Positions 19,645 to 54,028 of a stretch of DNA of 64,000 nt are shown one piece after another (within the stretch, counting starts at the first letter, position 1; each line of letters opens with the position of its first letter). Below the pieces are notes generated by a model. The model was not told where the DNA came from. It saw nothing but the letters and a program-made list of their open reading frames with translations, and did no database searches. The position numbers and the translations under genes are program-made. This DNA comes from Rhizobiales bacterium IMCC20636. GTDB lineage: Bacteria > Pseudomonadota > Alphaproteobacteria > Rhizobiales > GCA-2746425. Location of the stretch: the NCBI GenBank assembly GCA_016865015.1, contig CP018226.1:465001-529000 (forward strand), read 5' to 3'.

Positions 19645-20127
19645 CTAGATCAGGTCGTCTTCGATGTCGTCATCAATGTCATCAGGGTCCACCTTGAGAT
19701 CGGTTCGCAAATTCTGCTCAATCTGTTTGAGAAGCTTGGCAAGGCGTTTGCGGTCCTTGTCATCAATGTTCTTAAGGGAGGCGCGGTCGAGCGATTTCCA
19801 GGCCTTGTCGACCTCGCTCAAAAGCGCAATGCCAGATGCTGACAGGTGGACATGGGACTGTCTGCCATCGGTTTCAGAAGGTCGCCGTTCAACATAGCCC
19901 TGGGAGGTCAGGCGGTTGATCATCTTGGTGACTGTTGGTGGGCGCACACCCAACTCGGATGCAAGACTACCCATGGTCTGACCGTCTTCCTTGTTCAGCG
20001 CTTTCAGCACGGTTTCCTGTCCCGGGTGAAGGCCAAGTTTGCCGAGTTTCTTGGCGGAAAAAATCCGCTGTGCACGTGCAGCTTTTGTGATGCGCAATGT
20101 TATGGATTTCTTGTGATTAAAAGCCAT
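19645..20127 (-). CDS. MarR family transcriptional regulator with acidic tail
   Basis: A 160-aa winged-helix regulator: LGLHPGQETVLKAL, helix-turn-helix LASELGVRPPTVTKMINRL, wing SQGYVERRPSETDGRQSHVHL. It ends with an unusually acidic stretch (DPDDIDDDIEDDL). The next gene downstream cannot be an operon partner since it is 433 bp away; the upstream quinone reductase (20259) is on the same strand, 131 bases earlier, and may be the regulated neighbour. Confidence 0.88.
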   Translation of the reverse strand: MAFNHKKSITLRITKAARAQRIFSAKKLGKLGLHPGQETVLKALNKEDGQTMGSLASELGVRPPTVTKMINRLTSQGYVERRPSETDGRQSHVHLSASGIALLSEVDKAWKSLDRASLKNIDDKDRKRLAKLLKQIEQNLRTDLKVDPDDIDDDIEDDLI

Positions 20128-20258
20128 GACGTCTCATCCACCGTAGATGTCTGTTTCCCAACAGGCGGAATTGTTACCCGCCTTAATTATTCCCTTAGAT
20201 TAAACAGATGACAGTCAGGTGACACTGCGTAAATAAGTTTTCCAATTGAGTTCGGAGT

Positions 20259-20855
20259 CTAACTGAGTGCGAATTTGCGCATTTTTCGATCTATCCGGGA
20301 AAGGTAGGATTTCAGCGCTGTCTGGCTGGTTATATCCATCTTGTAGTGGGCCAGATAAAGCGTCTTGCAGCCCGGTGTGCACAGGGCGCGAATCCCGCGC
20401 AGAATTGTCTTCTTACCCGGCTCACCAATCAGTTTTGAAACGGTCCAGGGTGCACCACATGTGGTCACGGCAGCGAGACGTTTGATATGCTGCATATTAG
20501 GGCGGATGGGAGTCGTTTCTGTTGGCATGGTGAAGGTCACATGGGGCACCCAGACCCGGTCCAGCCAGCCTTTCAGCATGGCGGGCAGTCCATACCACCA
20601 GGTTGGATAGACAAAGACCAGCGTATCGCACCAGCGTATGGCAGCGATGTGGTCCGCCACCGGTTCTTCATTGATTCCGGCGTCGTGATATTGGCGTCGT
20701 TCCTGGTCGCACATCACAGGATCAAAGTTCTCGGCATAAAGGTCAATCAAACGCACGTCATGACCCGACTCAGTGAGCGCGGCCACAACTGTCTGCTTCA
20801 TGGCTGCGGAAAAACTGTCCGAACAGGGATGACAGTAAACCACCAGTGATTTCAT
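20259..20855 (-). CDS. Flavodoxin-fold NAD(P)H dehydrogenase (quinone)-like protein
   Basis: A 198-aa protein of the NQO/KefF flavodoxin-fold family: SLVVYCHPCSDSFSAAM for FMN phosphate binding, FVYPTWWYGLPAMLKGWLDR for the isoalloxazine loop, and AVTTCGAPW. It is a clear paralogue of the protein at 53447-54028, sharing DLYAE-FD, QER--YHD and the PVA segments. Likely reduces quinones or electrophiles with NAD(P)H in the cytosol. It is followed on the same strand by a MarR regulator, a common arrangement for electrophile stress genes. Confidence 0.85.
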   Translation of the reverse strand: MKSLVVYCHPCSDSFSAAMKQTVVAALTESGHDVRLIDLYAENFDPVMCDQERRQYHDAGINEEPVADHIAAIRWCDTLVFVYPTWWYGLPAMLKGWLDRVWVPHVTFTMPTETTPIRPNMQHIKRLAAVTTCGAPWTVSKLIGEPGKKTILRGIRALCTPGCKTLYLAHYKMDITSQTALKSYLSRIDRKMRKFALS

Positions 20856-21026: not shown

Positions 21027-22376
21027 TTAGCCACTGGCAGATTGGGAGGTTGGTTTAGACTCATCATCTGTGGTTGCTGCCGGGGCCGGGTTTGCCTGAA
21101 CAATCAACTTCTCGGCTTTCTGAGCCAGGCTGGTGACGGTCGAGCTTTGAGCGACTGTTGCAGATTCGGCGAAAGCCTGGTGGTTGGTCTCGACGCGACC
21201 CAGTCGGTAAATGTAGTTGACCATGACGCCAAAACTCTGTCGCTCGCCCTTTTCAGATGTGTCCGCTTTGGACAAGATGGCATGAAGTGCTGCGCCGTTT
21301 CCAAGATGGAACCGGGCTACCGGATCAATTGGAAGTGCATCACTTCGTTTTGCGCGTGACAGGTAATAGGCGGCAAGTTGTTCCGTCAGTTCACTGTCTG
21401 CTTCCGGGTTAAGCAGATTTTTCCCAGGATGGTTCGGATTCTCGGCGACTTCGTTCTTCACCCATTTGGAGAAGCCCGGAGCCGGTGACAGTGTGACAAA
21501 GGTCTTCAGGTTTGGCAGGGCGACAGACAGGTCGTCCACCACCTGCTTGATGAGCGAGTTGCCGAAGGAAATGCCGCGCAGGCCTTCCTGACAGTTGGAA
21601 ATGGAATAGAAGACAGCCGTGTTGGCGTCTTCTCCCTCAAGAAACGGCCTGCTCTGTGAGAGAACGGATTGAATAGAATCCGGTATGCCTTTTGACAGTG
21701 CCACTTCCACAAAGACCAACGGTTCATCTGGCATTGAGGGGTGAAAGAATGCAAAGCAACGGCGATCTTCCGGCTCTATGCGTCCGCGCAGATCATCCCA
21801 GTCATTGATGGCATGTACAGCCTCATACTGGATGATCTTTTCCAGAATGTTGGCCGGTGTTGCCCATGAAATCTGGCGCAAGACTAGAAATCCACGATTG
21901 AACCAGGATGCCAGAAGATGGTCGAAATCGAGGTCGGTGCGGCGCAGGGCCGGGTGCTCGCGCAGCATGCCGAGCAGATCTTTCCGCATGCTGACGATGC
22001 GACTGGTGGCGTCCGATCCCTGATTAAGCCGGCGCAGCAATTCCTGCCGTTTGGGTTCTGAAACCTTCATGAGGGTTTCCAGGTTGGCCGGGCTTGGGTC
22101 GATGCCATAGGCTTCAGCAGCAGCTTTAACAGCATCTACATCCACATCCAGATTGTCGTTGAGGTGGCTGAAGAAGTCCGCCTTCTGGTCAGCTTCCAGT
22201 TTTTCATAGCGCGCCAGCAGGGCAGTTCCGATCTTGCGCGCGGAAACTTCTCCCCGATTGGACAGCAATGCATCGCACAATTCATTGATCGGACGATTGT
22301 CATTTATGGAGCGCAGAACGTTGCCCCGTTCAAAGACGGAACCAAGAAGATCCTGAAAGATACTGGAACGTCGCAT
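21027..22376 (-). CDS. matA: Malonyl-CoA decarboxylase
   Basis: Converts malonyl-CoA to acetyl-CoA and CO2. The 449-aa length and the helical N-terminal domain followed by an acetyltransferase-like catalytic domain match the family. Catalytic-region motifs FAFFHPSMPDEPLVFVEVAL, NCQEGLRGISFGNSLIKQV, TLSPAPGFSKW and ARFHLGNGA are present. It is divergent from a GntR regulator whose promoter holds a MatR-type box. In rhizobia matA is joined by matB (malonyl-CoA synthetase) and matC (transporter); neither is adjacent here. Confidence 0.92.
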   Translation of the reverse strand: MRRSSIFQDLLGSVFERGNVLRSINDNRPINELCDALLSNRGEVSARKIGTALLARYEKLEADQKADFFSHLNDNLDVDVDAVKAAAEAYGIDPSPANLETLMKVSEPKRQELLRRLNQGSDATSRIVSMRKDLLGMLREHPALRRTDLDFDHLLASWFNRGFLVLRQISWATPANILEKIIQYEAVHAINDWDDLRGRIEPEDRRCFAFFHPSMPDEPLVFVEVALSKGIPDSIQSVLSQSRPFLEGEDANTAVFYSISNCQEGLRGISFGNSLIKQVVDDLSVALPNLKTFVTLSPAPGFSKWVKNEVAENPNHPGKNLLNPEADSELTEQLAAYYLSRAKRSDALPIDPVARFHLGNGAALHAILSKADTSEKGERQSFGVMVNYIYRLGRVETNHQAFAESATVAQSSTVTSLAQKAEKLIVQANPAPAATTDDESKPTSQSASG

Positions 22377-22595: not shown

Positions 22596-23276
22596 ATGAC
22601 CACGCGCGCCGCCGATCACATTCGCGAGAAACTGGAACAGGCCATTCTGACAGGTTCCTATGGCGATGGCGTGCGCCTTGATGAACTGCAACTGGCAGAA
22701 AAATTCGAGGTTTCTCGCACACCCATCCGAGAAGCATTGCAGATGCTGGCGGCATCCGATCTTGTCGAGCTTATTCCGCGCCGGGGTGCCTTTGTGCGTC
22801 ATCCGGGATTTGTTGAACTGGTGGAAATGTTTGAGGTGATGGCTGAGCTGGAGGGCTTGTGCGGGCGTCTTGCGGCCAGACGAATGACCGACAGCCTGCT
22901 TTCAGAGCTGAAAACAGCGGAACAGGGCTGCATGTCAGCGCTGGACGATGGTGATACGGATGCCTATTACCGTGCCAATGAACAATTCCACACATTGCTT
23001 TATCAAGCGAGCGGAAACAGCTTTCTGACCGCCGAGGCAAAACGGCTTCACAAGCGCTTGCAGCCATTCAGGCGTCTGCAATTGCAGGCGCGCGGGCGCA
23101 TGTGGCAATCAATGGAAGAGCACAAGGCCATCCTGTTGGCGTTGGAAACCGGAAACGCTGAAGCCAGTGCAGGCTTGCTGCGTGATCACGTGGCCATTCA
23201 AGGAGAAAAATTCCATGATCTGATGGCCGGGTATCATGCCCAGCCAGCGGGTCAGGGCGTGGAGCAGATGGTCTAA
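22596..23276 (+). CDS. matR: GntR/FadR-type regulator, MatR-like
   Basis: A 226-aa FCD-type GntR regulator: N-terminal winged helix with LDELQLAEKFEVSRTPIREALQML and a C-terminal all-helical effector domain with the metal/ligand histidines in NEQFHTLLYQASGN and LLRDHVAIQGEKFHD. Being divergent from malonyl-CoA decarboxylase and next to a TTGTATACAA box, it is best read as MatR, which senses malonate. Its stop overlaps the stop of the convergent HAD gene. Confidence 0.82.
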   Translation: MTTRAADHIREKLEQAILTGSYGDGVRLDELQLAEKFEVSRTPIREALQMLAASDLVELIPRRGAFVRHPGFVELVEMFEVMAELEGLCGRLAARRMTDSLLSELKTAEQGCMSALDDGDTDAYYRANEQFHTLLYQASGNSFLTAEAKRLHKRLQPFRRLQLQARGRMWQSMEEHKAILLALETGNAEASAGLLRDHVAIQGEKFHDLMAGYHAQPAGQGVEQMV

Positions 23277-24362: not shown

Positions 24363-25706
24363 ATGGCCTTATGGATCAAGAATCCACTTGCGATTTTGGC
24401 GGAGAATGCGGCGGGTGGCGTGGTTGTTGATGACGGCCGGATTACCGAGTTGGTGCCCATGGGCGGCACGCCCCAGAGTCCTGATCATAGGGTTTTCGAT
24501 GCCAGTCGCCATGTGGTCATTCCGGGCCTGATCAACACGCACCATCATTTCTTCCAAACACTGACGCGCGCCCACCCTGCTGCGATCAACAAGGAATTGT
24601 TTCCCTGGCTTCAGGCGCTTTATCCGATCTGGGCCAAGAATGTGAAACCGGATGCGTTTCGACTGGCGACCCGACTGGCTCTGACCGAGTTGATGATGTC
24701 GGGCTGCACCTGTGCGTCGGACCATCAATATCTGTATCCCGATGGTCTTGAAGAGGCCATGGATATACAGGTTGAAGAGGCGGAGAAACTGGGTATCCGC
24801 ATGACACTGACGCGGGGATCGATGAATCTGAGTGTCAAGGATGGTGGATTGCCGCCCGACAGTGTGGTGCAGGATGAGGATGCCATTCTGGCTGACTGCG
24901 AGCGGGTGATCGGACGCTATCATGATACGTCGGAAGGATCACAGTTTCGGGTTGCACTGGCACCTTGTGCACCCTTCACCGTATCCCGCAGGCTGATGAC
25001 TGAGAGTGCCGTTCTGGCGGAAAAACATGATTGCCGGTTGCATACACATCTTGCGGAAACGCTGGATGAGGATGCTTATTGTGTTGCCAATTATGGCATG
25101 CGGCCGGTTGACTATCTGGAAGATGTGGGTTGGCTCAATCATCGCACCTGGCTGGCTCACGGCATTCATTTCAATGATGAGGAAGTTCAGCGTCTTGGCC
25201 GCCACAAGGTTGGCGTTTGCCACTGTCCGACCTCCAATATGACGCTCGCCTCCGGACAGTGCCGCACCAAGGAGCTGGAAGCTGCCGGTTCGCCGGTTGG
25301 GTTGGGCGTTGACGGCTCGGCATCGAATGACAATTCCAACCTGATGGAAAGCATTCGCCACGCCTTGATGATCAATCGACTGACCTATGATGCGGCTTCA
25401 GTGACGCATCAAGACTGCTATCGCTGGGCAACAGAGGGATCTGCAAAATGCCTTGGGCGTGATGATATTGGCCGGATTGACGTGGGCATGCAGGCGGATC
25501 TGGCGCTTTATACGCTGGACGAATTGCGCTTTTCAGGCGTGGGTGACCCGCTGGCAGGCCTTGTGCTGTGTGGCGCGCATTCCGCAGACCGTGTGATGAT
25601 TGCCGGACGGTGGACGGTCGAAGATGCCCTTCCTGTGTCCATGGATATTGACCGTCTGCGTCATGAGCATGGAACTGCCGCGAAAGCGTTTCTGGAGGCG
25701 TTGTAG
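24363..25706 (+). CDS. 8-oxoguanine deaminase (amidohydrolase)
   Basis: A 447-aa amidohydrolase of the 8-oxoguanine deaminase / hydroxydechloroatrazine hydrolase group; expected to convert 8-oxoguanine (or isocytosine-type rings) to urate-level products. Zn ligands are in INTHHHFFQT, HTHLAETLDE, WLAHGIHF and DGSASNDNSNL. The opening MALWIKNPLAILAENAAGGV is typical of this subgroup. Start at 24363 has GGAG eight bases upstream; a longer frame from 24192 overlaps the divergent HAD gene. No purine transporter is adjacent. Confidence 0.85.
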   Translation: MALWIKNPLAILAENAAGGVVVDDGRITELVPMGGTPQSPDHRVFDASRHVVIPGLINTHHHFFQTLTRAHPAAINKELFPWLQALYPIWAKNVKPDAFRLATRLALTELMMSGCTCASDHQYLYPDGLEEAMDIQVEEAEKLGIRMTLTRGSMNLSVKDGGLPPDSVVQDEDAILADCERVIGRYHDTSEGSQFRVALAPCAPFTVSRRLMTESAVLAEKHDCRLHTHLAETLDEDAYCVANYGMRPVDYLEDVGWLNHRTWLAHGIHFNDEEVQRLGRHKVGVCHCPTSNMTLASGQCRTKELEAAGSPVGLGVDGSASNDNSNLMESIRHALMINRLTYDAASVTHQDCYRWATEGSAKCLGRDDIGRIDVGMQADLALYTLDELRFSGVGDPLAGLVLCGAHSADRVMIAGRWTVEDALPVSMDIDRLRHEHGTAAKAFLEAL

Positions 25707-35150: not shown

Positions 35151-35235
35151 TTGGTACGGGTCGCAATAATGACAGCTCTGCGTTATAGCTGCGCGGTAAT
35201 TCAGGCACTCCATTCATGCTGTGACAAGGAACCAT

Positions 35236-36048
35236 ATGGCCAGAAACGGATTTCCCACACCCTATTGGCAGGATATGCCGACAACGGATTTTGACCCGGC
35301 TGTAACAGGCGACTGGATTGCAGTGTTGCCGGTGGCTGCCATCGAGCAGCACGGCCCGCATTTGCCCGTCGCCACTGATACGGCGATCGGCACCGGCATG
35401 GTGGAAGCGACCCTGGCACGGCTGCCTGAAAACCTGCCGGCGACTTTCCTGCCGATGCAGCAGGTTGGAAAATCCAATGAACACATTTCCTCGCCCGGGA
35501 CGTTGACCCATTCCTGGGAAACGGTCACACGCAGCTGGATCGAGCTGGGCGAAAGCGTGCACCGGGCAGGGGTTCGCAAATTGGTGCTGATCAACTCTCA
35601 TGGCGGCAATGTGCCGATCATCGATATTGTGGCCCGCGAATTGCGGGTGCGTTTCGACATGCTGTGTGTCGCAACCGGTTGGATGCGCTTCGGCCTGCCA
35701 GAGGGCAGCTATGATCCGCAAGAGCGGATTTATGGCATCCATGGCTGCGATGTGGAAACATCCATCATGTTGCATTTGCGCCCGGATCTTGTGCGGATGG
35801 ACAAGGCAGAGGATTTCCGATCAACACAATTGGACTATCTGAAGGAGTTCAAACATCTACGCGCCCATGGGCCTGCGCAGTTTGGCTGGAAGGCACAGGA
35901 TCTCAATCTTGCTGGCACCGTTGGCAATGCAGCCACAGCGACAGCAGAAAAGGGCGAAGCCATTGTGAGCTATCAGGCGGAAAAATTTGTGGAGTTGCTG
36001 GATGATGTAAACCGCTTCGATCCCGGACGTCTGTGGACCGCTTCATGA
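35236..36048 (+). CDS. Creatininase family amidohydrolase
   Basis: A 270-aa metal-dependent amidohydrolase. Metal ligands are in LPVAAIEQHGPHLPVATDT, INSHGGN and HGCDVETSIML. AAGGA is seven bases before the ATG. The family includes creatininase, mycofactocin MftE and formamide hydrolases; nothing here identifies the substrate. Its stop overlaps the start of a secreted hydrolase (ATGA at 36045), so the pair is translationally coupled. Confidence 0.87.
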   Translation: MARNGFPTPYWQDMPTTDFDPAVTGDWIAVLPVAAIEQHGPHLPVATDTAIGTGMVEATLARLPENLPATFLPMQQVGKSNEHISSPGTLTHSWETVTRSWIELGESVHRAGVRKLVLINSHGGNVPIIDIVARELRVRFDMLCVATGWMRFGLPEGSYDPQERIYGIHGCDVETSIMLHLRPDLVRMDKAEDFRSTQLDYLKEFKHLRAHGPAQFGWKAQDLNLAGTVGNAATATAEKGEAIVSYQAEKFVELLDDVNRFDPGRLWTAS

Positions 36049-41570: not shown

Positions 41571-41672
41571 CGCGGTTTTGCGTCTCCGCTCTTTTATCGC
41601 AACTCCATTCCAGATATGCTTCGGCACATCGCGCAACTCATGCGCCGCAGAATCATTGCCCCGGAGAATAGT

Positions 41673-42839
41673 GTGTCAGATAAACCAACCTATACCGCGT
41701 TGGAGCTATTGGAAAAACTCGTCGCCTTTCCAAGTGTCTCAAGAGTAAGCAATCTGCCTGTCATAGACTTTATTGAAGACTATCTGAACGCCTACGGCGT
41801 CGCGTCAACGCGTGTCTATAATGAGGATGGCACCAAAGCCAGCCTGTATGCGACGGTTGGTCCGCAGGTGCCAGGCGGTGTGGTTCTGTCAGGGCATACA
41901 GATGTGGTGCCTGTGGATGGTCAGGACTGGACGACAGATCCCTTTACCGTCACACGCAAGGGCGACCGGCTATACGGGCGTGGCACCTGCGACATGAAGG
42001 GGTTTCTTGCGCTGGGACTGGCACAACTGCCAGCCATGGTTGCCGCTGATCTGGAACGTCCGATCCATTTTGCGTTTTCCTATGATGAGGAACTGGCCTG
42101 CCTTGGCGCATGGGATCTGGTGGCAGAAATGGCCAAACATGTCGCCATGCCCGCAGCCGTCATTGTTGGCGAGCCAACCAATATGGAAGTGGTTACCGGA
42201 CATAAGGGCTTCATGAATTTGAAGACCCATGTGCGCGGTTTTGAGGTGCATTCCAGCCTGTCGCATACCGGTGTATCCGCGGTCATGATTGCGGCCAGAC
42301 TGGTTACGTATCTGTCGGATATGAGTGAGCAGAACAGACAGGCCGCGGACCCGCTAAATCCGTTTGTGCCGAACTGGTCAACAGTGCATTGCGGCCAGAT
42401 AGAAGGTGGAACAGCGCACAATATCGTGGCCAAGGATTGCTGGTTTGTGACCGATATCCGGGCCATTGCCGGCGAAACACCACGCCAGTATTTCGAACGA
42501 TATGTGGCACATATAAGAGATGAGGTGGAGCCAGCGATGCAGGCTATCCACCCGGATACCGGAATTGATATTGAAATTCTCTCGGAAGTTCCCGGTCTGG
42601 CTCCCGAGAATAATGGCATTGCCGAAGAACTGGCCCGATCCCTGACAGGAGACAATGGCTCTCATGTTGTCTCTTACGGCACTGAGGCAGGGCAGTTTCA
42701 GGGTGTCGGCTTTTCGGTTGTGGTTTGCGGGCCGGGCTCGATCAAACAGGCCCATCAGCCAAATGAATATCTGGACATATCCGAACTTGAAACAGGAAGC
42801 CATTTCGTTCGGGATCTCATAAAGCGGCAATCGAAATAA
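41673..42839 (+). CDS. argE: M20 family deacylase, acetylornithine deacetylase (ArgE)-like
   Basis: Zinc amidohydrolase of 388 aa from GTG 41673 (GGAG six bases upstream); ATG 41640 would add 11 residues. Metal-site motifs: SGHTDVVPVDGQDW (His, Asp), GTCDMKG (Asp), YDEELACLGA (Glu pair), VGEPTNM (Glu) and QAHQPNEY (His). SLSHTGVSAV is the dimerisation-domain entry. ArgE removes acetyl from N-acetylornithine, but the subgroup also covers succinyl-diaminopimelate and other N-acyl amino acids. It is 102 bases after comC, so joint transcription is uncertain. Confidence 0.85.
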   Translation: MSDKPTYTALELLEKLVAFPSVSRVSNLPVIDFIEDYLNAYGVASTRVYNEDGTKASLYATVGPQVPGGVVLSGHTDVVPVDGQDWTTDPFTVTRKGDRLYGRGTCDMKGFLALGLAQLPAMVAADLERPIHFAFSYDEELACLGAWDLVAEMAKHVAMPAAVIVGEPTNMEVVTGHKGFMNLKTHVRGFEVHSSLSHTGVSAVMIAARLVTYLSDMSEQNRQAADPLNPFVPNWSTVHCGQIEGGTAHNIVAKDCWFVTDIRAIAGETPRQYFERYVAHIRDEVEPAMQAIHPDTGIDIEILSEVPGLAPENNGIAEELARSLTGDNGSHVVSYGTEAGQFQGVGFSVVVCGPGSIKQAHQPNEYLDISELETGSHFVRDLIKRQSK

Positions 42840-45995: not shown

Positions 45996-46727
45996 TCAAT
46001 CCCGTATCACAGACCCAAAAAACTCGAAAATCTGTTTCGACACCGGATCACTCGCGGCCCAGTATTCGGGGTGCCATTGCACGCCCAAGGCGAAGGCTTT
46101 GGCGTTGTCTACCGAGACCGCTTCAATGGTGCCGTCATCGGCTGTGGCTTCTATGGACAGTCCATCTGCTAACCGGTCGATGGCCTGCCGGTGTAGGGAG
46201 TTGATTGCGATGGGTGTGGTGCCGAGGATGCGTGCCAGCAGTCCATCCTTTACCGGTGTGATGGTGTGGGCGATCTTGTAGCGCACATCTTGATCCGGAT
46301 GCACGACCGCACGGTGATCCATGATGCCTGTATTTTCCTGAATCTCTGTATGCAGTGTCCCGCCAAGGGCCACGTTCAGTTCCTGATGGCCGCGACAAAT
46401 GGCCAGCAGCGGGGTGCCGCGTGCGATGGCGCTGCGGATCAGCGGCAGAGTGGTGGCGTCACGGTCATGATCATAGGGTTCATGGCTTTGGGTTGGTTCC
46501 TGACCATAGACTTTTGGAAAAACATTGCTTTTTGAGCCTGTTACGACAACGCCGTCGACCCGGCTCAGCACGCTTTCAAAGTCGGTTTCGGTGGCCAGAT
46601 CTGGTAGAATGAGGGGCTGCGCCCCAGAAATGTTCGAGACGGCTTTCAGGTAGGTATCAATGGCGCCATGCCAATTATAACCGCCTGTCTGCACAACATC
46701 TGCGGTAACCAGAACCAGAGGTTTCAT
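45996..46727 (-). CDS. Class I glutamine amidotransferase-like hydrolase (peptidase C26, PuuD-like)
   Basis: A 243-aa gamma-glutamyl hydrolase-type protein. The nucleophile Cys is in LLAICRGHQELNVALGG and the His-Glu pair in VQWHPEYWA. PuuD cleaves gamma-glutamyl-GABA in putrescine breakdown, the likeliest role, though no other puu genes are adjacent. ATG 46727 preferred to a TTG four codons earlier. Confidence 0.85.
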   Translation of the reverse strand: MKPLVLVTADVVQTGGYNWHGAIDTYLKAVSNISGAQPLILPDLATETDFESVLSRVDGVVVTGSKSNVFPKVYGQEPTQSHEPYDHDRDATTLPLIRSAIARGTPLLAICRGHQELNVALGGTLHTEIQENTGIMDHRAVVHPDQDVRYKIAHTITPVKDGLLARILGTTPIAINSLHRQAIDRLADGLSIEATADDGTIEAVSVDNAKAFALGVQWHPEYWAASDPVSKQIFEFFGSVIRD

Positions 46728-46882
46728 GAGTGTATCCAAAGAAAATCAACAGAATTCAGATTGCACCATATCCTATCCTACTTCCACCACAATTCGGCAC
46801 CAAATGCTCCTGCGTAAGTCGAACCGAAGCTGCCAAGCGTGTCGCGAAACGCCGCAGCTTATGAAACCACAAAAAAGAGACC

Positions 46883-47250: not shown

Positions 47251-47649
47251 CTAAACACCGCGCGCGGCAAGCACTTCGATCTCAACCACAAATTCTTTGA
47301 GCGCAAAGCCAGATACAACCATCAAGGTTGATGCGGGTGGCGGCTCCGACACGTACCGGTCTCGCGCGCGCATGTAACCAGCCAGATGATCCCGATGGCT
47401 GACATAGGCATTGACCCGCACAATGTGCGACAAATCCATCTTTGCACTTGCCAGAATTTCCGCGATGTTCTGAAATATCAGATCGGTCTGCGCCTCTGCG
47501 CCTTCGGGAATATGATCATCGGGCGTTATGCCCAATTGCCCGGAACAGACAAGAAGTCTGGAGCCCGGCGGCACTTCCACGCCGTGGCTGTAATTTGCAA
47601 AAGGTGCTCTGATTGTGCCCGGCGTGTGGCGCGGAAACTGATCTGCCAT
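47251..47649 (-). CDS. RidA/YjgF/RutC family protein
   Basis: A 132-aa RidA-family protein: YSHGVEVPPGSRLLVCSGQLG, ILASAKMDLSHIVRVNAYVS, and the end ASTLMVVSGFALKEFVVEIE. True RidA deaminates enamine/imine intermediates and needs an Arg in the position of VVSGFA (normally xxR), which is not obvious here, so it is of another subgroup such as RutC-like. It is divergent from the ABC transporter and cytosine-deaminase operon, which would suit an imine- or aminoacrylate-type intermediate. Confidence 0.88.
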   Translation of the reverse strand: MADQFPRHTPGTIRAPFANYSHGVEVPPGSRLLVCSGQLGITPDDHIPEGAEAQTDLIFQNIAEILASAKMDLSHIVRVNAYVSHRDHLAGYMRARDRYVSEPPPASTLMVVSGFALKEFVVEIEVLAARGV

Positions 47650-47735
47650 TTGGGTTCGTCCTGCTGTTGACTGTCAAATTTGTTTTACAACATATCTCGT
47701 ATATACGGCATTATCTGACCAGTCCCGGTCTGAAT

Positions 47736-47756
47736 CCTGGCGAAAAAGGTGCCAGG
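47736..47756 (+). promoter_or_regulatory. Hairpin in the leader of the ABC/deaminase operon
   Basis: CCTGGC pairs with GCCAGG around a nine-base loop; a smaller GACC/GGTC hairpin lies just upstream. The leader before the binding-protein start is more than 120 bases. It could be a structured control element; it does not match a riboswitch class that I recognise. Confidence 0.3.
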
Positions 47757-47864
47757 GTGGATATTGCGTCACCTTGGCGCTTGATTTTTGGGTGCGCTGC
47801 ATCACACACTGTTGGGGACCCTCCCAAAGCGGTCTCAATTTTCGCAAGCAAAAGGAATCTTGCA

Positions 47865-48890
47865 ATGGTGTTCAACCACACGAAAACCCTCGCGGCTTTT
47901 GGCGCGCTCGCTCTGAGTGCCACTTTCGCAACCCAATCCAGTGCTCTTGAAGACGTTACCTTTGGAACCAACTGGCTGGCACAGGCCGAACATGGCGGCT
48001 TTTATCAATCGGTGGTTGATGGCACATATGAGGCCTGTGGCCTCAATGTCAGTATCGCACCAGGCGGGCCACAGGTGAACAACCGCGCCTTGTTGCTGGC
48101 AGGCAAGATTGAATTTCATATGGGCGGCAACATGCTGCAGCCCTTCTCCGCCGCCGAGCAGAACATTCCAGTTGTGGTTGTGGCCTCCATGTTCCAGAAA
48201 GAACCTCAGGTTCTGATCAGCCATCCCGATCAGGGTTTTGACACATGGGAAAGCCTCAAGGACGCAACCCTTCTGCTCGGGGAAACCGGCTTTCAGAGTT
48301 ATTATCAATGGATGATGGCCGAGTATGGTTTTACCGTCGAACAACGTGAGCCATATACGTTCAACGCAGCACCCTTCCTGGCGAACAAGAAATCCGCGCA
48401 GCAGGGCTACATCACATCTGAGCCATTTGCGATTGAACGTGAAGGTGGCTTCAAGCCCAATCTGTTCCTGTTGGCGGATTATGGTTTTGACACTTACTCC
48501 ACCACAATTGAAGCGATGCAGGCGACGATTGATGCGAAGCCTGAAGTCGTACAGTGCTTCGTGGATGGCTCGGCATTGGGTTGGGTGAATTATCTTTATG
48601 GTGACAATGCTGCTGCCAATGAGATGATCAAGAAAGACAATCCTGACATCACTGACGAGCAGATTGCCTTCTCCGTCGAAACGATGAAGGAGTATGGCAT
48701 TGTGGATAGTGGCGATTCTGAAACCATGGGCATTGGTGCCATGACGGATGAGCGGCAGAAAAGCTTCTATGACAAGATGGTGGCTGCCGGTGTCACACCC
48801 GCAGACCTCGACATTTCAAAGATCTACACGCTGGACTTCATCAACAAGGGCGTTGGTGTCGAGTTGAAGAAAAAACTCACCGGCATGTAA
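47865..48890 (+). CDS. NMT1/THI5-like ABC transporter substrate-binding protein
   Basis: A 341-aa periplasmic receptor with signal peptide (AFGALALSATFATQSSA). The mature start DVTFGTNWLAQAEHGGFYQS is the hallmark of the thiamine-pyrimidine-precursor-like group, followed by APGGPQVNNRALLLAGKIEF. AAGGA precedes ATG 47865. Members bind pyrimidine-type rings, so the ligand is probably a pyrimidine or related N-heterocycle, in line with the deaminase downstream. Confidence 0.86.
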   Translation: MVFNHTKTLAAFGALALSATFATQSSALEDVTFGTNWLAQAEHGGFYQSVVDGTYEACGLNVSIAPGGPQVNNRALLLAGKIEFHMGGNMLQPFSAAEQNIPVVVVASMFQKEPQVLISHPDQGFDTWESLKDATLLLGETGFQSYYQWMMAEYGFTVEQREPYTFNAAPFLANKKSAQQGYITSEPFAIEREGGFKPNLFLLADYGFDTYSTTIEAMQATIDAKPEVVQCFVDGSALGWVNYLYGDNAAANEMIKKDNPDITDEQIAFSVETMKEYGIVDSGDSETMGIGAMTDERQKSFYDKMVAAGVTPADLDISKIYTLDFINKGVGVELKKKLTGM

Positions 48891-48957
48891 TCGATCCCGT
48901 TTCCCGGTCGCGGCGGAAAACCACCGCGATCGGACTATCTTCCAAGGCAGTTTTCTC

Positions 48958-49752
48958 GTGAACCAATCGCCTCTGATTTCCCTTAATGGCATTACAAAAT
49001 CCTTTTCCAACGGCACGGTCGCCTTGCGCGATATGGCGATGGATGTTCAGCAGGGGGAGTTTGTCAGTCTGCTTGGCCCCTCCGGCTGCGGTAAATCCAC
49101 CGCATTGCGGATTATTGCCGGTCTTGCGCCTGCAACAACTGGAACCGTGTCTTGGGGCGATACGTCTGACAGTTCTGTCGCAGACTCGTCTCATGATGTG
49201 AGCTTCGTATTTCAGGAACCAACACTGATGCCCTGGGCCACGGTGTTCGGGAACGTTTTCCTGCCACTGAAACTCAAAGGGCAGAGCAAGGCTGCTGCCA
49301 GAGAGGCCGTGATGGAGGCTCTGGCGCTGGTCGGTCTTGAACAATTTGAAAATTCCTATCCGCGTGAATTGTCCGGTGGCATGAAAATGCGGGTGTCAAT
49401 TGCGCGCGCTCTGGTGACCAGGCCCCGGCTGTTGCTGATGGATGAGCCGTTTGCCGCGCTCGATGAAATTACGCGTTTCAAGCTCAACAATGATCTTCTG
49501 GAACTGTGGCAACGCTTCAACTGGACTGTCATCTTCGTTACTCATTCCGTGTTTGAATCGGTTTATCTTTCCAACCGGATTGTGGTGATGGCCGCCCGAC
49601 CGGGCCGGGTTGTGGATGACATGGCAGTTGACGCGCCTTACCCGCGCGATGAATCCTTCCGCACCAGTGATATCTACAGCCAGCACTGCCGTGAAGTCTC
49701 CGCTGCCCTGCACAAGGCTATGGATTCCTATCAACCGGGGACAGCGGCATGA
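48958..49752 (+). CDS. ABC transporter ATPase (SsuB/TauB/ThiZ type)
   Basis: A 264-aa ATPase. Walker A GPSGCGKSTALRI, signature LSGGMKMRVSIARAL, Walker B LLLMDEPFAALDE and switch His in IFVTHSVFE. It energises the importer formed with the genes on either side. GTG start at 48958; its TGA overlaps the permease start (ATGA at 49749). Confidence 0.9.
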   Translation: MNQSPLISLNGITKSFSNGTVALRDMAMDVQQGEFVSLLGPSGCGKSTALRIIAGLAPATTGTVSWGDTSDSSVADSSHDVSFVFQEPTLMPWATVFGNVFLPLKLKGQSKAAAREAVMEALALVGLEQFENSYPRELSGGMKMRVSIARALVTRPRLLLMDEPFAALDEITRFKLNNDLLELWQRFNWTVIFVTHSVFESVYLSNRIVVMAARPGRVVDDMAVDAPYPRDESFRTSDIYSQHCREVSAALHKAMDSYQPGTAA

Positions 49753-50624
49753 GCCAGATCAATACCCAAAGCGGTGCTGCAATTGCCAATGATGCGGTGT
49801 TGATTGACCCCGTTGAAGTGGCCCGTGCCCGCGCCAAACGGCGTGACCGGGTCCTGCAATGGCTGCTTCCTCTGATCATTTTTGCAATTGCCATTTTTCT
49901 TTGGGACCAATTGTGTGTCTGGAATGAAATTCCGTCGTATATTCTGCCGCGACCGGGGCTTGTCTGGAATACGCTGGTGACGGATTGGGGGCTGCTGTCA
50001 TTCTCGTTGCTCAATACACTCAAGATTACATTTCTGAGCCTGGCGCTGGCGATTGGCGGTGGCGTGGGGCTGGCGGTGCTGTTCACGGTGTCGCGCCGTG
50101 TGGAAATGTCATTGTTTCCTTTTGCTATCATTTTGCAGGTGACACCGATTGTCGCGGTGTTTCCGCTGATCAACATCTATGTGGATGACCAGACTGCAAA
50201 GCTGCTGCTGTGCGCATGGATCGTCGCGTTCTTTCCGATCCTGTCCAATACGACGCTTGGCCTTAACTCGGTGGATCATAATCTGCGTGATCTGTATCGG
50301 CTTTATGGAGCGTCCCGCTGGCAGACCCTGTGGCATCTGCAACTGCCTGCTGCGATGCCATTCTTTCTTGGTGGTTTGAAAATTGCCGGTGGGCTGGCGC
50401 TGATTGGCGCTGTCGTGGCGGAGTTTGTGGCGGGTGCTGCGGGCCAGAGTTCCGGCCTGGCATCGCGCATCATCGAGGCAGGCTACAGGCTGAATGCACC
50501 GCGGCTGTTTGCGGCGCTGCTGTTGATATCGGTCACCGGAATTCTGATCTTTTTTGCCACTTCCCTGATTTCCCATCTGATTTTGCGTAAATGGCATGAA
50601 AGTGCTCTAAAAAGAGAAATTTGA
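49749..50624 (+). CDS. ABC transporter permease (SsuC/ThiX type)
   Basis: A 291-aa permease with about six spans after a 40-residue cytosolic N-terminus. The EAA loop is LYRLYGASRWQTLWHLQLPA with MPFFLGGLKIAGGLALIGAV. Coupled to the ATPase gene by four bases and 17 bases before the deaminase start. Confidence 0.9.
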   Translation: MSQINTQSGAAIANDAVLIDPVEVARARAKRRDRVLQWLLPLIIFAIAIFLWDQLCVWNEIPSYILPRPGLVWNTLVTDWGLLSFSLLNTLKITFLSLALAIGGGVGLAVLFTVSRRVEMSLFPFAIILQVTPIVAVFPLINIYVDDQTAKLLLCAWIVAFFPILSNTTLGLNSVDHNLRDLYRLYGASRWQTLWHLQLPAAMPFFLGGLKIAGGLALIGAVVAEFVAGAAGQSSGLASRIIEAGYRLNAPRLFAALLLISVTGILIFFATSLISHLILRKWHESALKREI

Positions 50625-50641
50625 AGCATGAGGTTAAAAGC

Positions 50642-52000
50642 ATGACGTCATTGCCAGGGTTTCTGACTGTCCCCAAGTTTGAGCGCTATGTGCTGTCCCG
50701 CGGCCGGGTTCCGGCAGCGCTGATCGCACATCTGGATGACATGCCGTTTCCAAAGGTCGGATTTCCACCGGATCAGGATCTGGTCTGTGCTGATTTTCTG
50801 ATTGAGAACGGCCAGTTGAAAGCTATCGCTGCGCCCGGTTCCTTTGATGGCGAACTTGCAGTTCTGGATCTGGACCAGTCGATGGTGCTGCCCGCCTTTA
50901 CCGAATTGCACACGCATCTGGACAAGGGGCACATACAACCCCGACAGCAAAACCCTGATGGCTCTTTTGATGGAGCGCTGCAAAGCGTGACAGCTGACAG
51001 ACTTGCCAATTGGAGTGCAGAAGACGTTCGCAGCCGGATGGAATTCAGTCTGCGCTGTGCCTATGCGCATGGAACGCAGTCGATCCGGACCCATCTGGAT
51101 TCAGCGGAAGGGCAGCACAGCATTTCCTGGCCTGTCTTTGCCGAGATGCGCACCGACTGGGCGGACCGCATATCTCTGCAGGCCGCGTCGCTTGTTGGCA
51201 TTGAAGCGTTGGCAGATGATGCCCAGCGGTTGGCCGTTCTGCAAAGTGTTCTGGCTGTGGGGGGAATAGCTGGCGCAGTTACCTACATGGTGCCGGAACT
51301 GGACGCGACGCTGGATCACATGTTTCGCGATGCGATGGATGCCGGCATTGATCTGGATTTTCATGTTGATGAAACGCTTGATCCGGACGCACATTCCCTT
51401 GCGGTGATTGCCGAAAAAGCCATTGCGCTGAATTATCAGGGTCGCATTACCTGCGGCCATTGCTGTTCCCTGTCGCGTCAGACAGATGACGCCGTGGACC
51501 GGACACTTGATCTGGTGGCGCAGGCCAACATCACTGTGGTCAGCCTGCCGATGTGCAATCTCTATCTGCAGGACCGGGGCACAGTCGGTGCTGGTCCGGA
51601 TGCTCCGCGCCGAACGCCTCGATACAGAGGTGTCACCTTGCTGCATGAAATGAAAGCACGCGGCATTCCTGTGGCTGTTTCATCGGATAATACGCGCGAT
51701 CCGTTTTATGCCTATGGCGATCTGGATGCGCTGGAAGTTTACCGGGAGGCGACCCGCATCGCGCATCTGGATCATCCCGTCGGAGACTGGATCCTGATCA
51801 TTACCGAGACACCCGGAATGACCATGGGACTGGAAGGTGGTTTCGCCGTTGACGGGCCAGCTGATCTGGTTTTGGTAAAAGCCCGCAGTTTCAATGAATT
51901 GCTGTCGCGTCCGCAGATGGATCGTGTCGTTCTGCGGCATGGGCAGGCTATTGAGCGGGTGCTGCCGGATTATCGCGAACTGGACGATCTGCTGTCCTGA
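50642..52000 (+). CDS. Cytosine deaminase-like amidohydrolase
   Basis: A 452-aa amidohydrolase. Metal motifs: ELHTHLDKGHIQPRQQ (HxH and the LDKGH typical of CodA-like deaminases), DFHVDETLDPDAHS, TCGHCCSLS and AVSSDNTRDPFYAYG. The start at 50642 has GAGG eight bases upstream. Expected to remove ammonia from, or open, an imported pyrimidine- or triazine-like ring; E. coli CodA acts on cytosine. Its neighbours (oxidase and flavin reductase) are not part of the simple cytosine salvage route, so the substrate is probably different. Confidence 0.83.
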   Translation: MTSLPGFLTVPKFERYVLSRGRVPAALIAHLDDMPFPKVGFPPDQDLVCADFLIENGQLKAIAAPGSFDGELAVLDLDQSMVLPAFTELHTHLDKGHIQPRQQNPDGSFDGALQSVTADRLANWSAEDVRSRMEFSLRCAYAHGTQSIRTHLDSAEGQHSISWPVFAEMRTDWADRISLQAASLVGIEALADDAQRLAVLQSVLAVGGIAGAVTYMVPELDATLDHMFRDAMDAGIDLDFHVDETLDPDAHSLAVIAEKAIALNYQGRITCGHCCSLSRQTDDAVDRTLDLVAQANITVVSLPMCNLYLQDRGTVGAGPDAPRRTPRYRGVTLLHEMKARGIPVAVSSDNTRDPFYAYGDLDALEVYREATRIAHLDHPVGDWILIITETPGMTMGLEGGFAVDGPADLVLVKARSFNELLSRPQMDRVVLRHGQAIERVLPDYRELDDLLS

Positions 52001-52027
52001 AATCATATGTTCCAAGGAGTATCGCAC

Positions 52028-53446
52028 ATGGATGTTGCCAGGCTGAAAGCTGATCTGGCCCCGGTCAAATGCGAAGACAATGCGGCCATCGTCAAACAGA
52101 AAAGCCGGGATTTCTTTTGGTATTCACCGGTGCTGAAACGTCAACTGGACGGGGTCACGGCTGATCTGATTGCTTCGCCGGTCAGCGAAGCTGAGGTCAT
52201 CCATGTGCTGAAGACCTGTTTTGCCCATGATGTGCCGGTCACGCCGCGCGGAACGGGGACGGGCAATTACGGCCAGGCGATGCCCTTGTCGGGCGGTGTG
52301 CTGCTTGATTTGTCCAAATTCAACAAGGTAAAGCAGATTTCCACTGGGCGGTTTATCGCAGAACCGGGTGCCGTGATTGCTGCCATTGATAAGCAGGCGC
52401 GGCAAAGCGGGCAGGAAGTGCGGATGCATCCATCGACCTATGCGACCGCTTCAATCGGTGGCTTTATTGCCGGTGGTTCTGGTGGCGTGGGTTCGATCAA
52501 TTTTGGTGGGTTGCGTGATCTGGGAAATGTCATCCGGCTGCGGGTGGTGACCATGGAAGCAGAGCCGCGTGTTCTGGAACTGGGCGGCGAAGATCTGCAG
52601 AAGGTGAGCCATGCTTATGGCACCAATGGCATTATCACTGAAGTGGAAATGCCGCTTGGCCCGGCCTATGACTGGGTGGATGTGCTGGTCGGGTTTGACC
52701 CTGCCGGGGGCGATGCGTTTGATGGGTGGATGGAAGCCGTTCGGTTTGGAGATCATCTTGGCTTGCAGGATGGTATTCTGACCAAGAATATTGCACCCAT
52801 TCAGGCACCGATTCCCGAGCATTATTTCCTGCGCCACCGCAAATTCATCAAGAGCGGTCAGTCGGTGTGCGTTTGCATGGTTGCACCTTTCGCAATGGAT
52901 GCCTTTGCCACCTTTGTGGCGCGTGGCCCGGGGCAGATTCTATATCGCTCGGACACCGCTACTGATGAAGAAAAGAAAGGCTTGCCTCCGGCCTTTGAAC
53001 TGGCCTGGAACCATACCACCTTGCGCGGTCTCCGGGTTGACCCCGAGATCACCTACCTTCAGGTGCTCTATCCCTTTCCGGACCAGATTGCGCGTGTGGA
53101 AGCTGTCTCGAAGCTCTTTCCGGACGAAGTCATGGGCCATCTGGAATATGTCCGCTTTGACGGGCATGTCACGTGTTTTGGCTTGCCAATCGTGAAGTTC
53201 ACCACAGAGGAGCGCCTCGACGAGATCATTCGCATCCACGAAGAAGAAGGTTGCCCGATCTTCAACCCGCATCGTTATACGCTGGAGGAAGGCGGTATGA
53301 AGCAGACGGATGCTGTGCAACTGGATTTCAAGCGTGAGGCTGACCCCAAAGGATTGCTGAATCCAGGGAAAATGGTGGCTTGGGATAATCCGGATTTCGA
53401 CTTTTCCAACCAGACCTATCTGTTTCCGGGGCTGGAGCGACGATAA
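52028..53446 (+). CDS. FAD-linked oxidase (GlcD/VAO-type)
   Basis: A 472-aa flavoprotein of the PCMH/VAO superfamily. FAD-binding part: VTPRGTGTGNYGQAMPLSGG, FIAEPGAVIAAIDKQ, GGFIAGGSGGVGSINFGGLRD. The C-terminal half resembles the substrate domain of FAD-linked oxidases. AAGGAG precedes ATG 52028. Not secreted, so the acceptor may be oxygen, a quinone or the adjacent flavodoxin-fold protein. Lies 27 bases after the deaminase and ends directly before the reductase. Confidence 0.85.
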   Translation: MDVARLKADLAPVKCEDNAAIVKQKSRDFFWYSPVLKRQLDGVTADLIASPVSEAEVIHVLKTCFAHDVPVTPRGTGTGNYGQAMPLSGGVLLDLSKFNKVKQISTGRFIAEPGAVIAAIDKQARQSGQEVRMHPSTYATASIGGFIAGGSGGVGSINFGGLRDLGNVIRLRVVTMEAEPRVLELGGEDLQKVSHAYGTNGIITEVEMPLGPAYDWVDVLVGFDPAGGDAFDGWMEAVRFGDHLGLQDGILTKNIAPIQAPIPEHYFLRHRKFIKSGQSVCVCMVAPFAMDAFATFVARGPGQILYRSDTATDEEKKGLPPAFELAWNHTTLRGLRVDPEITYLQVLYPFPDQIARVEAVSKLFPDEVMGHLEYVRFDGHVTCFGLPIVKFTTEERLDEIIRIHEEEGCPIFNPHRYTLEEGGMKQTDAVQLDFKREADPKGLLNPGKMVAWDNPDFDFSNQTYLFPGLERR

Positions 53447-54028
53447 ATGCGGGTTCATGTCATTTTTGCGCATCCGGTGGAAACCAGTTTCAACGCGTCC
53501 ATGCACAGGATGGTGGTGGAAACGCTGACAGAGGCCGGGCATGAGGTTGATGATTGCGATCTGTATGCAGAAGGCTTCGATGCTGTTCTATCGCGGCAAG
53601 AACGCCTGAATTACCACGATACGGATATCAACCGCCAACCGGTTGCTGCCTATGTGGACAGGCTGCTGAATGCAGAGGCGCTGGTGTTTGTGCATCCGAT
53701 CTGGAATTTCGGGCTTCCCGCCATTTTGAAGGGCTATATGGACCGGGTTCTGTTGCCCGGTGTGTCGTTTCATATTTCAGATGGGAAGCTGACGCCTGGT
53801 CTGCTGCATCTGCGCAAGCTGGCCTGTGTGGTCACCTATGGCGCGCAAAGATGGCGGGCCATGGTTCTGGGTGATCCACCGCGCAAGATAGCAACGCGGA
53901 TGATGCGCGCCACGATGAAACCCGGCACGCCCGTCTGGTATCTTGCCCAATATGACATGAACAATGTCACTGACGCGCAGCTTCAACAACATTTGGAGCG
54001 TACGCGTCAGAAATTATTGAAATTCTGA
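53447..54028 (+). CDS. Flavodoxin-fold NAD(P)H dehydrogenase (quinone)-like protein
   Basis: A 193-aa NQO-family protein: HVIFAHPVETSFNASMHRMV, FVHPIWNFGLPAILKGYMDR, ACVVTYGAQRW. It begins with no gap after the oxidase stop (TAAATG), so the two are made together. Paralogue of 20259-20855. It may reoxidise or reduce the product of the upstream enzymes, for instance a quinone-like or imine ring. Confidence 0.85.
   Translation: MRVHVIFAHPVETSFNASMHRMVVETLTEAGHEVDDCDLYAEGFDAVLSRQERLNYHDTDINRQPVAAYVDRLLNAEALVFVHPIWNFGLPAILKGYMDRVLLPGVSFHISDGKLTPGLLHLRKLACVVTYGAQRWRAMVLGDPPRKIATRMMRATMKPGTPVWYLAQYDMNNVTDAQLQQHLERTRQKLLKF

Follow-up and report, generated by a model that had tools for sequence, protein, structure and literature searches.

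Within a 64,000-nucleotide window of the Rhizobiales bacterium IMCC20636 genome (bases 465001-529000 of a 4.79 Mb single contig), six plus-strand genes at positions 47865-54028 constitute a real operon that is widely conserved, beyond chance. On balance, we favour a role for it in importing folate or another pteridine and breaking down the ring. The operon couples a transporter to a CodA-like amidohydrolase, a flavoprotein homologous to the crystallized flavin oxygenase 6v42 and a flavodoxin-fold reductase, with a gene for a Rid-family protein running divergently from it.

The first gene encodes an NMT1/THI5-type substrate-binding protein (47865-48890, +; PF09084, NMT1), for which we chose the ATG at 47865 in an open frame that begins at 47613. 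After a gap of 67 bases come an ATP-binding cassette (ABC) transporter ATPase with a GTG start (48958-49752, +; PF00005, ABC_tran), the permease (49749-50624, +; PF00528, BPD_transp_1), the CodA-like amidohydrolase of the PRK07583 family (50642-52000, +; Pfam Amidohydro_3, NF005759), the VAO-fold flavoprotein (52028-53446, +; Pfam FAD_binding_4, phmmer match to PDB 6v42) and an NQO/KefF-type flavodoxin-fold oxidoreductase, NQO1 (53447-54028, +; PF02525, Flavodoxin_2). NQO1 scored 110.1 bits against the Flavodoxin_2 cut-off of 27 and reached the cut-off of no NCBIfam equivalog model. The divergent RidA-like gene occupies 47251-47649 (-; PF01042, Ribonuc_L-PSP). ATPase and permease genes overlap by 4 bases, and the gaps from permease to amidohydrolase, amidohydrolase to flavoprotein and flavoprotein to NQO1 are 17, 27 and 0 bases, so that the order, families and tight spacing (-4, 17, 27 and 0 bases) given for these seven genes in an initial annotation of the window were reproduced.

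To assess conservation, named bacterial genomes were scanned with the flavoprotein and the best 80 of 259 loci kept, a set of the closest relatives that, judged from record titles, are alphaproteobacteria. Genes were counted by tblastn and not by clustering of open reading frames, which merged or missed genes in loci of high guanine-plus-cytosine content. Order and orientation of all six genes, from binding protein to NQO, are kept in 69/80 loci. The other 11 comprise five loci cut by contig ends, one (L100) that fails only through the distance limit used, one with no detectable binding protein (L066), one with a rearranged order (L114) and three titled Bosea (L107, L113 and L117) that have only amidohydrolase, flavoprotein and NQO among the six genes, the transporter being missing. 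A Rid gene is found somewhere in 69/80 loci. Of the 69 operons with all six genes, 66 have it on the minus strand and 47 have it upstream, as in the window.

Genomes of the same order gave a concordant picture. Amidohydrolase matches at E 1e-80 or lower occur in 35/101 genomes, and we defined a positive set of 32 at E 1e-110 or lower, dropping G038, G040 and G087 (41-44% identity). In G040 a flavoprotein fragment adjoins the amidohydrolase; neither G038 nor G087 gave a strong match to the flavoprotein. Strong flavoprotein matches (E 1e-160 or lower) are present in 31/32 positive genomes, where the two genes are 8-163 bases apart in 31/31 cases (coordinates transcribed by hand). The sole positive genome without such a match, G030, is 67% complete; the amidohydrolase gene of G025 carries one in-frame TAG, and three genomes (G016, G063 and G099) have the flavoprotein without the amidohydrolase. 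Fisher values for co-occurrence are inflated by relatedness among the genomes, and adjacency is the stronger argument. It is the six-gene order in the named loci, together with the adjoining flavoprotein in 31 of the 32 positive genomes, that places the operon beyond chance. Neighbourhood conservation across alphaproteobacteria, and of the oxidase and reductase with the transporter and deaminase in particular, had been set as the check on a joint pathway and was found.

The pteridine reading draws first on the flavoprotein, which matches 6v42 over its full length (phmmer E 9.7e-208; 64% BLASTP identity over 473 columns), an entry titled 'Crystal structure of the flavin oxygenase with cofactor bound involved in folate catabolism'. 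A structural model built with 31 aligned sequences (mean predicted local distance difference test score (pLDDT) 76.7) superimposes on 6v42 with Z 43.0 and a root-mean-square deviation of 2.3 over 437 aligned residues, the next entry being at Z 27.1. Full-length homology and the shared VAO/PCMH-type fold place the protein among the 6v42-type flavin oxygenases, and by homology and PDB title it is probably such an oxygenase. An earlier call of a VAO-type oxidase held for the fold and is narrowed here to a relative of 6v42. We did not locate the gene of 6v42 itself, the best matches being proteins of 74-75% identity in five genomes of one genus. Flanking sequence was taken for four of the five, and in 4/4 of these stretches, genes for creatininase, binding protein, ATPase, permease, CodA-like enzyme, flavoprotein, NQO and a second NQO (NQO2) follow in that order, which ties the nearest relatives of 6v42 that we reached to the same operon and further favours a pteridine substrate.

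The amidohydrolase passes NF005759, the NCBI 'cytosine deaminase' model for PRK07583 (598.7 bits, cut-off 403). The metal ligands of Escherichia coli CodA (His61, His63, His214 and Asp313) and its catalytic Glu217 and His246 are all kept, as H90, H92, H241, D349, E244 and H273 in 81/81 sequences; the roles of CodA residues are in part our assumption. Gln never stands at position 187, the counterpart of CodA Gln156, where 81/81 sequences have Ile, Leu, Val, Phe or Met; CodA Asp314 becomes Asn350 in 81/81 and Trp319 is replaced. A conserved Gln180 (79/81) aligns with CodA Gln150. We take 156 to be the number of the stabilizing Gln of CodA, and this residue presumably reads the 2-oxo group. Because Gln156 and Asp314 are not kept, cytosine is an unlikely substrate, and the protein is probably a deaminase or hydrolase of another heterocycle. 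A stabilizing Gln in CodA-type enzymes is described in the accessible part of PMC12828455, and the accessible part of PMC6186785 gives the Asp, numbered 315 there, control of specificity. Ordinary cytosine salvage with the redox genes as bystanders would agree with the NCBI name of the amidohydrolase; we ruled it out, as scarcely conceivable, on these residues and on linkage to the flavoprotein gene. The co-conservation of flavoprotein and NQO with transporter and deaminase thus supports the proposal of the initial annotation that the operon serves an N-heterocycle other than cytosine; the second refuting condition named there, a deaminase confined to cytosine, was judged from residues.

The binding protein scored 70.1 bits against Pfam NMT1 (cut-off 20.5), and its AlphaFold model (mean pLDDT 91.8) is nearest to thiamin-bound 4nmy (Z 29.3), formylaminopyrimidine-binding 3ix1 (Z 27.7) and Thi5 (Z ~25), with receptors for pyrroloquinoline quinone, sulfonate and nitrate ranking lower (Z ~20-22). 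The best-ranking structures have thiamin, a formylaminopyrimidine or pyridoxal phosphate as their ligand or in their names, a resemblance that we count towards a pteridine. It is also what would be expected if the operon broke down the thiamin pyrimidine (hydroxymethylpyrimidine or its formylamino form), with oxidation of the hydroxymethyl group by the flavoprotein and loss of the 4-amino group through the CodA-like enzyme; the missing CodA Gln, whose 2-oxo role is our assumption, would likewise suit a 2-methyl ring. We consider this improbable. Fold and NMT1 family are shared with ThiY/THI5 and the thiamin-binding proteins, but identity to these receptors is only 17-18%, no Rfam family, and hence no thiamin pyrophosphate riboswitch, was found in the window at gathering thresholds, and neither the folate label of 6v42 nor the 8-oxoguanine-deaminase homologue described below would be explained.

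Four further genes 11-28 kb upstream of the Rid gene encode homologues of partners that join the operon in many relatives, and these had been missed by the initial annotation, which was otherwise right in its content of six plus-strand genes and Rid. They are a creatininase-family hydrolase (35221-36048, +; PF02633, 236.4 bits, cut-off 31.3), an 8-oxoguanine-deaminase-family amidohydrolase (24363-25706, +; NF006055, PRK08203, 656.6 bits, cut-off 532), NQO2 (20259-20855, -; PF02525) and a MarR-family regulator (19645-20127, -), the last assigned by homology to MarR proteins in relatives' loci. With proteins of relatives as queries, homologues of the creatininase-family protein were found near the operon in 54/80 loci, of the 8-oxoguanine deaminase near the Rid gene in 31/80 (at least 65% identity to a Roseibium protein), of MarR in 32/80 (at least 44% identity) and of the LysR regulator of rhizobial loci in 20/80 (at least 73% identity), after weak hits were dropped (deaminase, 24% and 28%; MarR, one at 28%; LysR, five at 25-43%). 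Searches of the IMCC20636 genome gave one close match each for the creatininase and deaminase queries, both inside the window, with two further deaminase matches at 22-24%; the rhizobial LysR matched nothing in the window at E 1e-5. The window MarR is 38-50% identical to MarR proteins of five loci, and NQO2 shares 52-53% identity with the second of the two tandem NQO proteins in L172-L175 and 41% with NQO1. Relatives have MarR genes after the NQO genes, some with an NQO2 homologue directly following NQO1 in tandem, and in the window the MarR and NQO2 genes adjoin (19645-20855).

Creatininase and deaminase genes share the operon contig in three genomes of the same genus, at ~10-24 kb from the Rid gene in G001 and G003 and also in G002, so the dispersed arrangement is shared within the genus; in a fourth, G004, the genes are spread over different contigs. 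The creatininase family was matched at E 1e-50 or lower in 31/32 amidohydrolase-positive genomes versus 24/69 others, and the 8-oxoguanine-deaminase type at E 1e-120 or lower in 18/32 versus 11/69. As a separate observation, 8-oxoguanine-deaminase homologues form a tandem pair in L077, L086, L106, L111 and L118, and creatininase-family and deaminase-type genes adjoin at G061:C1:4271757-4273905, far from the core operon, and at G031:C11:393376-395510, in a genome without a strong core match; the two may form a unit of their own.

The partners, being of ring-amide hydrolase types, point to a pteridine as well, and they also bear on two other substrates. The breakdown of oxidized or modified purines (8-oxoguanine or N2-alkylguanine), in which the two amidohydrolases would deaminate, the flavoprotein oxidize and the creatininase-type enzyme open the ring, draws on the match of the 24363-25706 protein to the 8-oxoguanine deaminase model and on enzymes of the same cluster that hydrolyse N2,N2-dimethylguanine (PMC13054789, in the part available) and isocytosine (PMC6186785, likewise in part). 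The deaminase homologue is outside the constant core, however, at 18/32 genomes, the nearest solved relative of the flavoprotein is labelled for folate catabolism and the receptor model resembles thiamin-type receptors, and we judge a purine substrate unlikely. Another N-heterocycle, whether creatinine-like, hydantoin, triazine or plant-specific, would fit the frequent creatininase-family partner and a CodA-like homologue (34% identical; L177, 9001-10233) that, on a Pseudomonas IncP plasmid, has the cyanuric-acid genes atzD, atzE and atzG as neighbours, along with an ABC transporter. The creatininase-family protein scored only 79.1 bits against the creatininase equivalog TIGR04448 (cut-off 235), so that a true creatininase is not supported and a ring-amide or amide hydrolase is predicted instead; we observed no tie between the flavoprotein and such compounds, and regard a substrate of this kind as quite improbable.

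From gene content, conservation, homology to 6v42 and residue patterns, we infer a substrate, an order of steps and a role for each enzyme of the pteridine pathway. The THI5/ThiY-type binding protein and ABC transporter would import a compound with a substituted pyrimidine ring. Amino groups of the ring would be removed by the metal-dependent CodA-like amidohydrolase and by the 8-oxoguanine-deaminase homologue encoded elsewhere in the window, and the VAO-fold flavin oxygenase would oxidize the ring. The NQO-type flavoproteins may supply or remove electrons, for example by keeping a quinonoid intermediate reduced, and the creatininase-family hydrolase would open a cyclic amide. For rhizobia only, we would guess that PaoABC acts on an aldehyde once the side chain has been lost by oxidation. 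Whether operon and partners make up a complete pathway for the pteridine ring, with attack by the flavin oxygenase, deamination by two amidohydrolases and ring opening by the creatininase-family enzyme, in marine and rhizosphere alphaproteobacteria and with related sets in Comamonadaceae and Klebsiella, is more doubtful, and we put this forward tentatively.

Precedents exist for parts of this scheme. Folic acid degradation does involve deamination of the pterin, and later steps were still open in 2022: according to the available part of PMC9513972, Variovorax sp. F1 degrades folic acid via a pterin deaminase, a cyclic-amidine hydrolase, with an 'endoribonuclease' encoded downstream of it. Variovorax differs in using carboxypeptidase G; in the same part of that source no flavin oxygenase is named, and 'creatininase' and 'ABC transporter' are absent from its text. 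Riboflavin and lumichrome breakdown likewise dismantles a B-vitamin ring with clustered amidases and oxidases, but through P450, Rieske and catechol dioxygenases and in other bacteria; that November 2025 paper describes, in the portion available, only vitamin B6, NAD+ and riboflavin breakdown pathways as well characterized (PMC12746152). The genes of folate and pteridine breakdown are still poorly known. If the pteridine reading is true, a conserved gene set, for example on plasmid pRL12 of Rhizobium johnstonii 3841, would open the turnover of folate in soil and sea to direct tests, and misleading automatic names (cytosine deaminase, RidA) would be corrected.

Several observations weigh against a folate or pteridine substrate. 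The chief weakness lies in the folate label, which derives mainly from a single PDB title, and a protein 64% identical to 6v42 may act on a different ring. Our literature search, which covered few subscription journals, returned no paper using the codes 6v42 or 6v43 and none on a folate pathway with a 6v42-type flavoprotein. Neither a Rid gene nor an 8-oxoguanine-deaminase homologue was found in the four stretches nearest 6v42, and many loci that have the core operon lack the deaminase homologue. Genes for carboxypeptidase G or p-aminobenzoate metabolism were not noticed as conserved, although no search was aimed at them. Two peptidase genes in the window are rarely shared among the 80 loci: the M20 peptidase (41616-42839) has a homologue only in L039, and the C26 peptidase of gamma-glutamyl hydrolase type (45996-46739, -), which adjoins the Rid gene, has homologues only in L039 and in L092, there 8.5 kb beyond the flavoprotein. 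The operon amidohydrolase shares no more than 23-26% identity with PRK05985-type enzymes. It could not be identified with the known pterin deaminase Arad3529, and both this enzyme and the Variovorax pterin deaminase could be placed in neither amidohydrolase group. Two R. rhizogenes genomes carry several PRK05985-type genes, none assignable by name as Arad3529, and in both one of these (a 443-codon open frame) lies ~8.4 kb from the operon amidohydrolase.

The Rid protein changes one part of the picture. Alignment to solved Rid proteins places Ser107 at the position of the catalytic Arg105 of RidA imine/enamine deaminases, and Ser stands there in 60/60 sequences (59 loci and the window). Because Ser replaces this Arg, the Rid gene is not a pointer to an imine, and the step that the initial annotation took from it to an imine or enamine intermediate was not supported. 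The Rid protein is probably no imine deaminase, and another role than imine hydrolysis is likely; an imine could arise at the flavoprotein instead. We presume, on our reading of an old name, that the Variovorax 'endoribonuclease' gene is also a Rid gene. As reported in the part of PMC4433059 available, changing the catalytic Arg almost abolishes imine hydrolysis by RidA, and ~10% of RidA proteins carry Ser in its place.

Beyond chromosomes, the flavoprotein was found at E 1e-60 or lower in 138/72,556 plasmid records, 109 of them Rhizobium. On pRL12 of R. johnstonii 3841 and of R. leguminosarum A1, the operon is accompanied by genes for creatininase, LysR, Rid, a PaoABC-type molybdenum oxidoreductase and a chemoreceptor; an Agrobacterium tumefaciens plasmid has the same set, without the chemoreceptor in the stretch seen. 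In R. johnstonii 3841, the genes for binding protein, amidohydrolase, flavoprotein and creatininase-family enzyme fall within RL_RS34440 to RL_RS34485. The PaoABC-type genes near 3/3 and the chemoreceptor near 2/3 of these stretches add to the case for a pteridine. More distant sets of flavoprotein, creatininase and Rid genes occur in Comamonadaceae, Ruegeria, Sulfitobacter, Alloyangia and Klebsiella, with amidohydrolases 29-47% identical to that of the operon; no such amidohydrolase was seen in the stretch from Agrobacterium F2. These sets suggest that related ring-breaking pathways make up a broader group.

Smaller features of the neighbourhood were also noted. A malonyl-CoA decarboxylase gene lies beside a GntR-family regulator gene in the window (21027-22376, -, and 22596-23276, +); the same pair occurs ~8 kb before the binding-protein gene on pRL12 of R. 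leguminosarum A1 and is missing from the R. johnstonii 3841 stretch. The link is possibly chance. A ureido/diaminopropionate branch, considered for genes upstream of a paralogue in L127, was dropped, since a small gene pair intervenes and the L124 stretch is without them. L124 and L127 are variant clusters, each with two flavoprotein paralogues (43-48% identical), an ABC transporter, NQO and a creatininase gene, and L124 also has a methyl-accepting chemotaxis gene.

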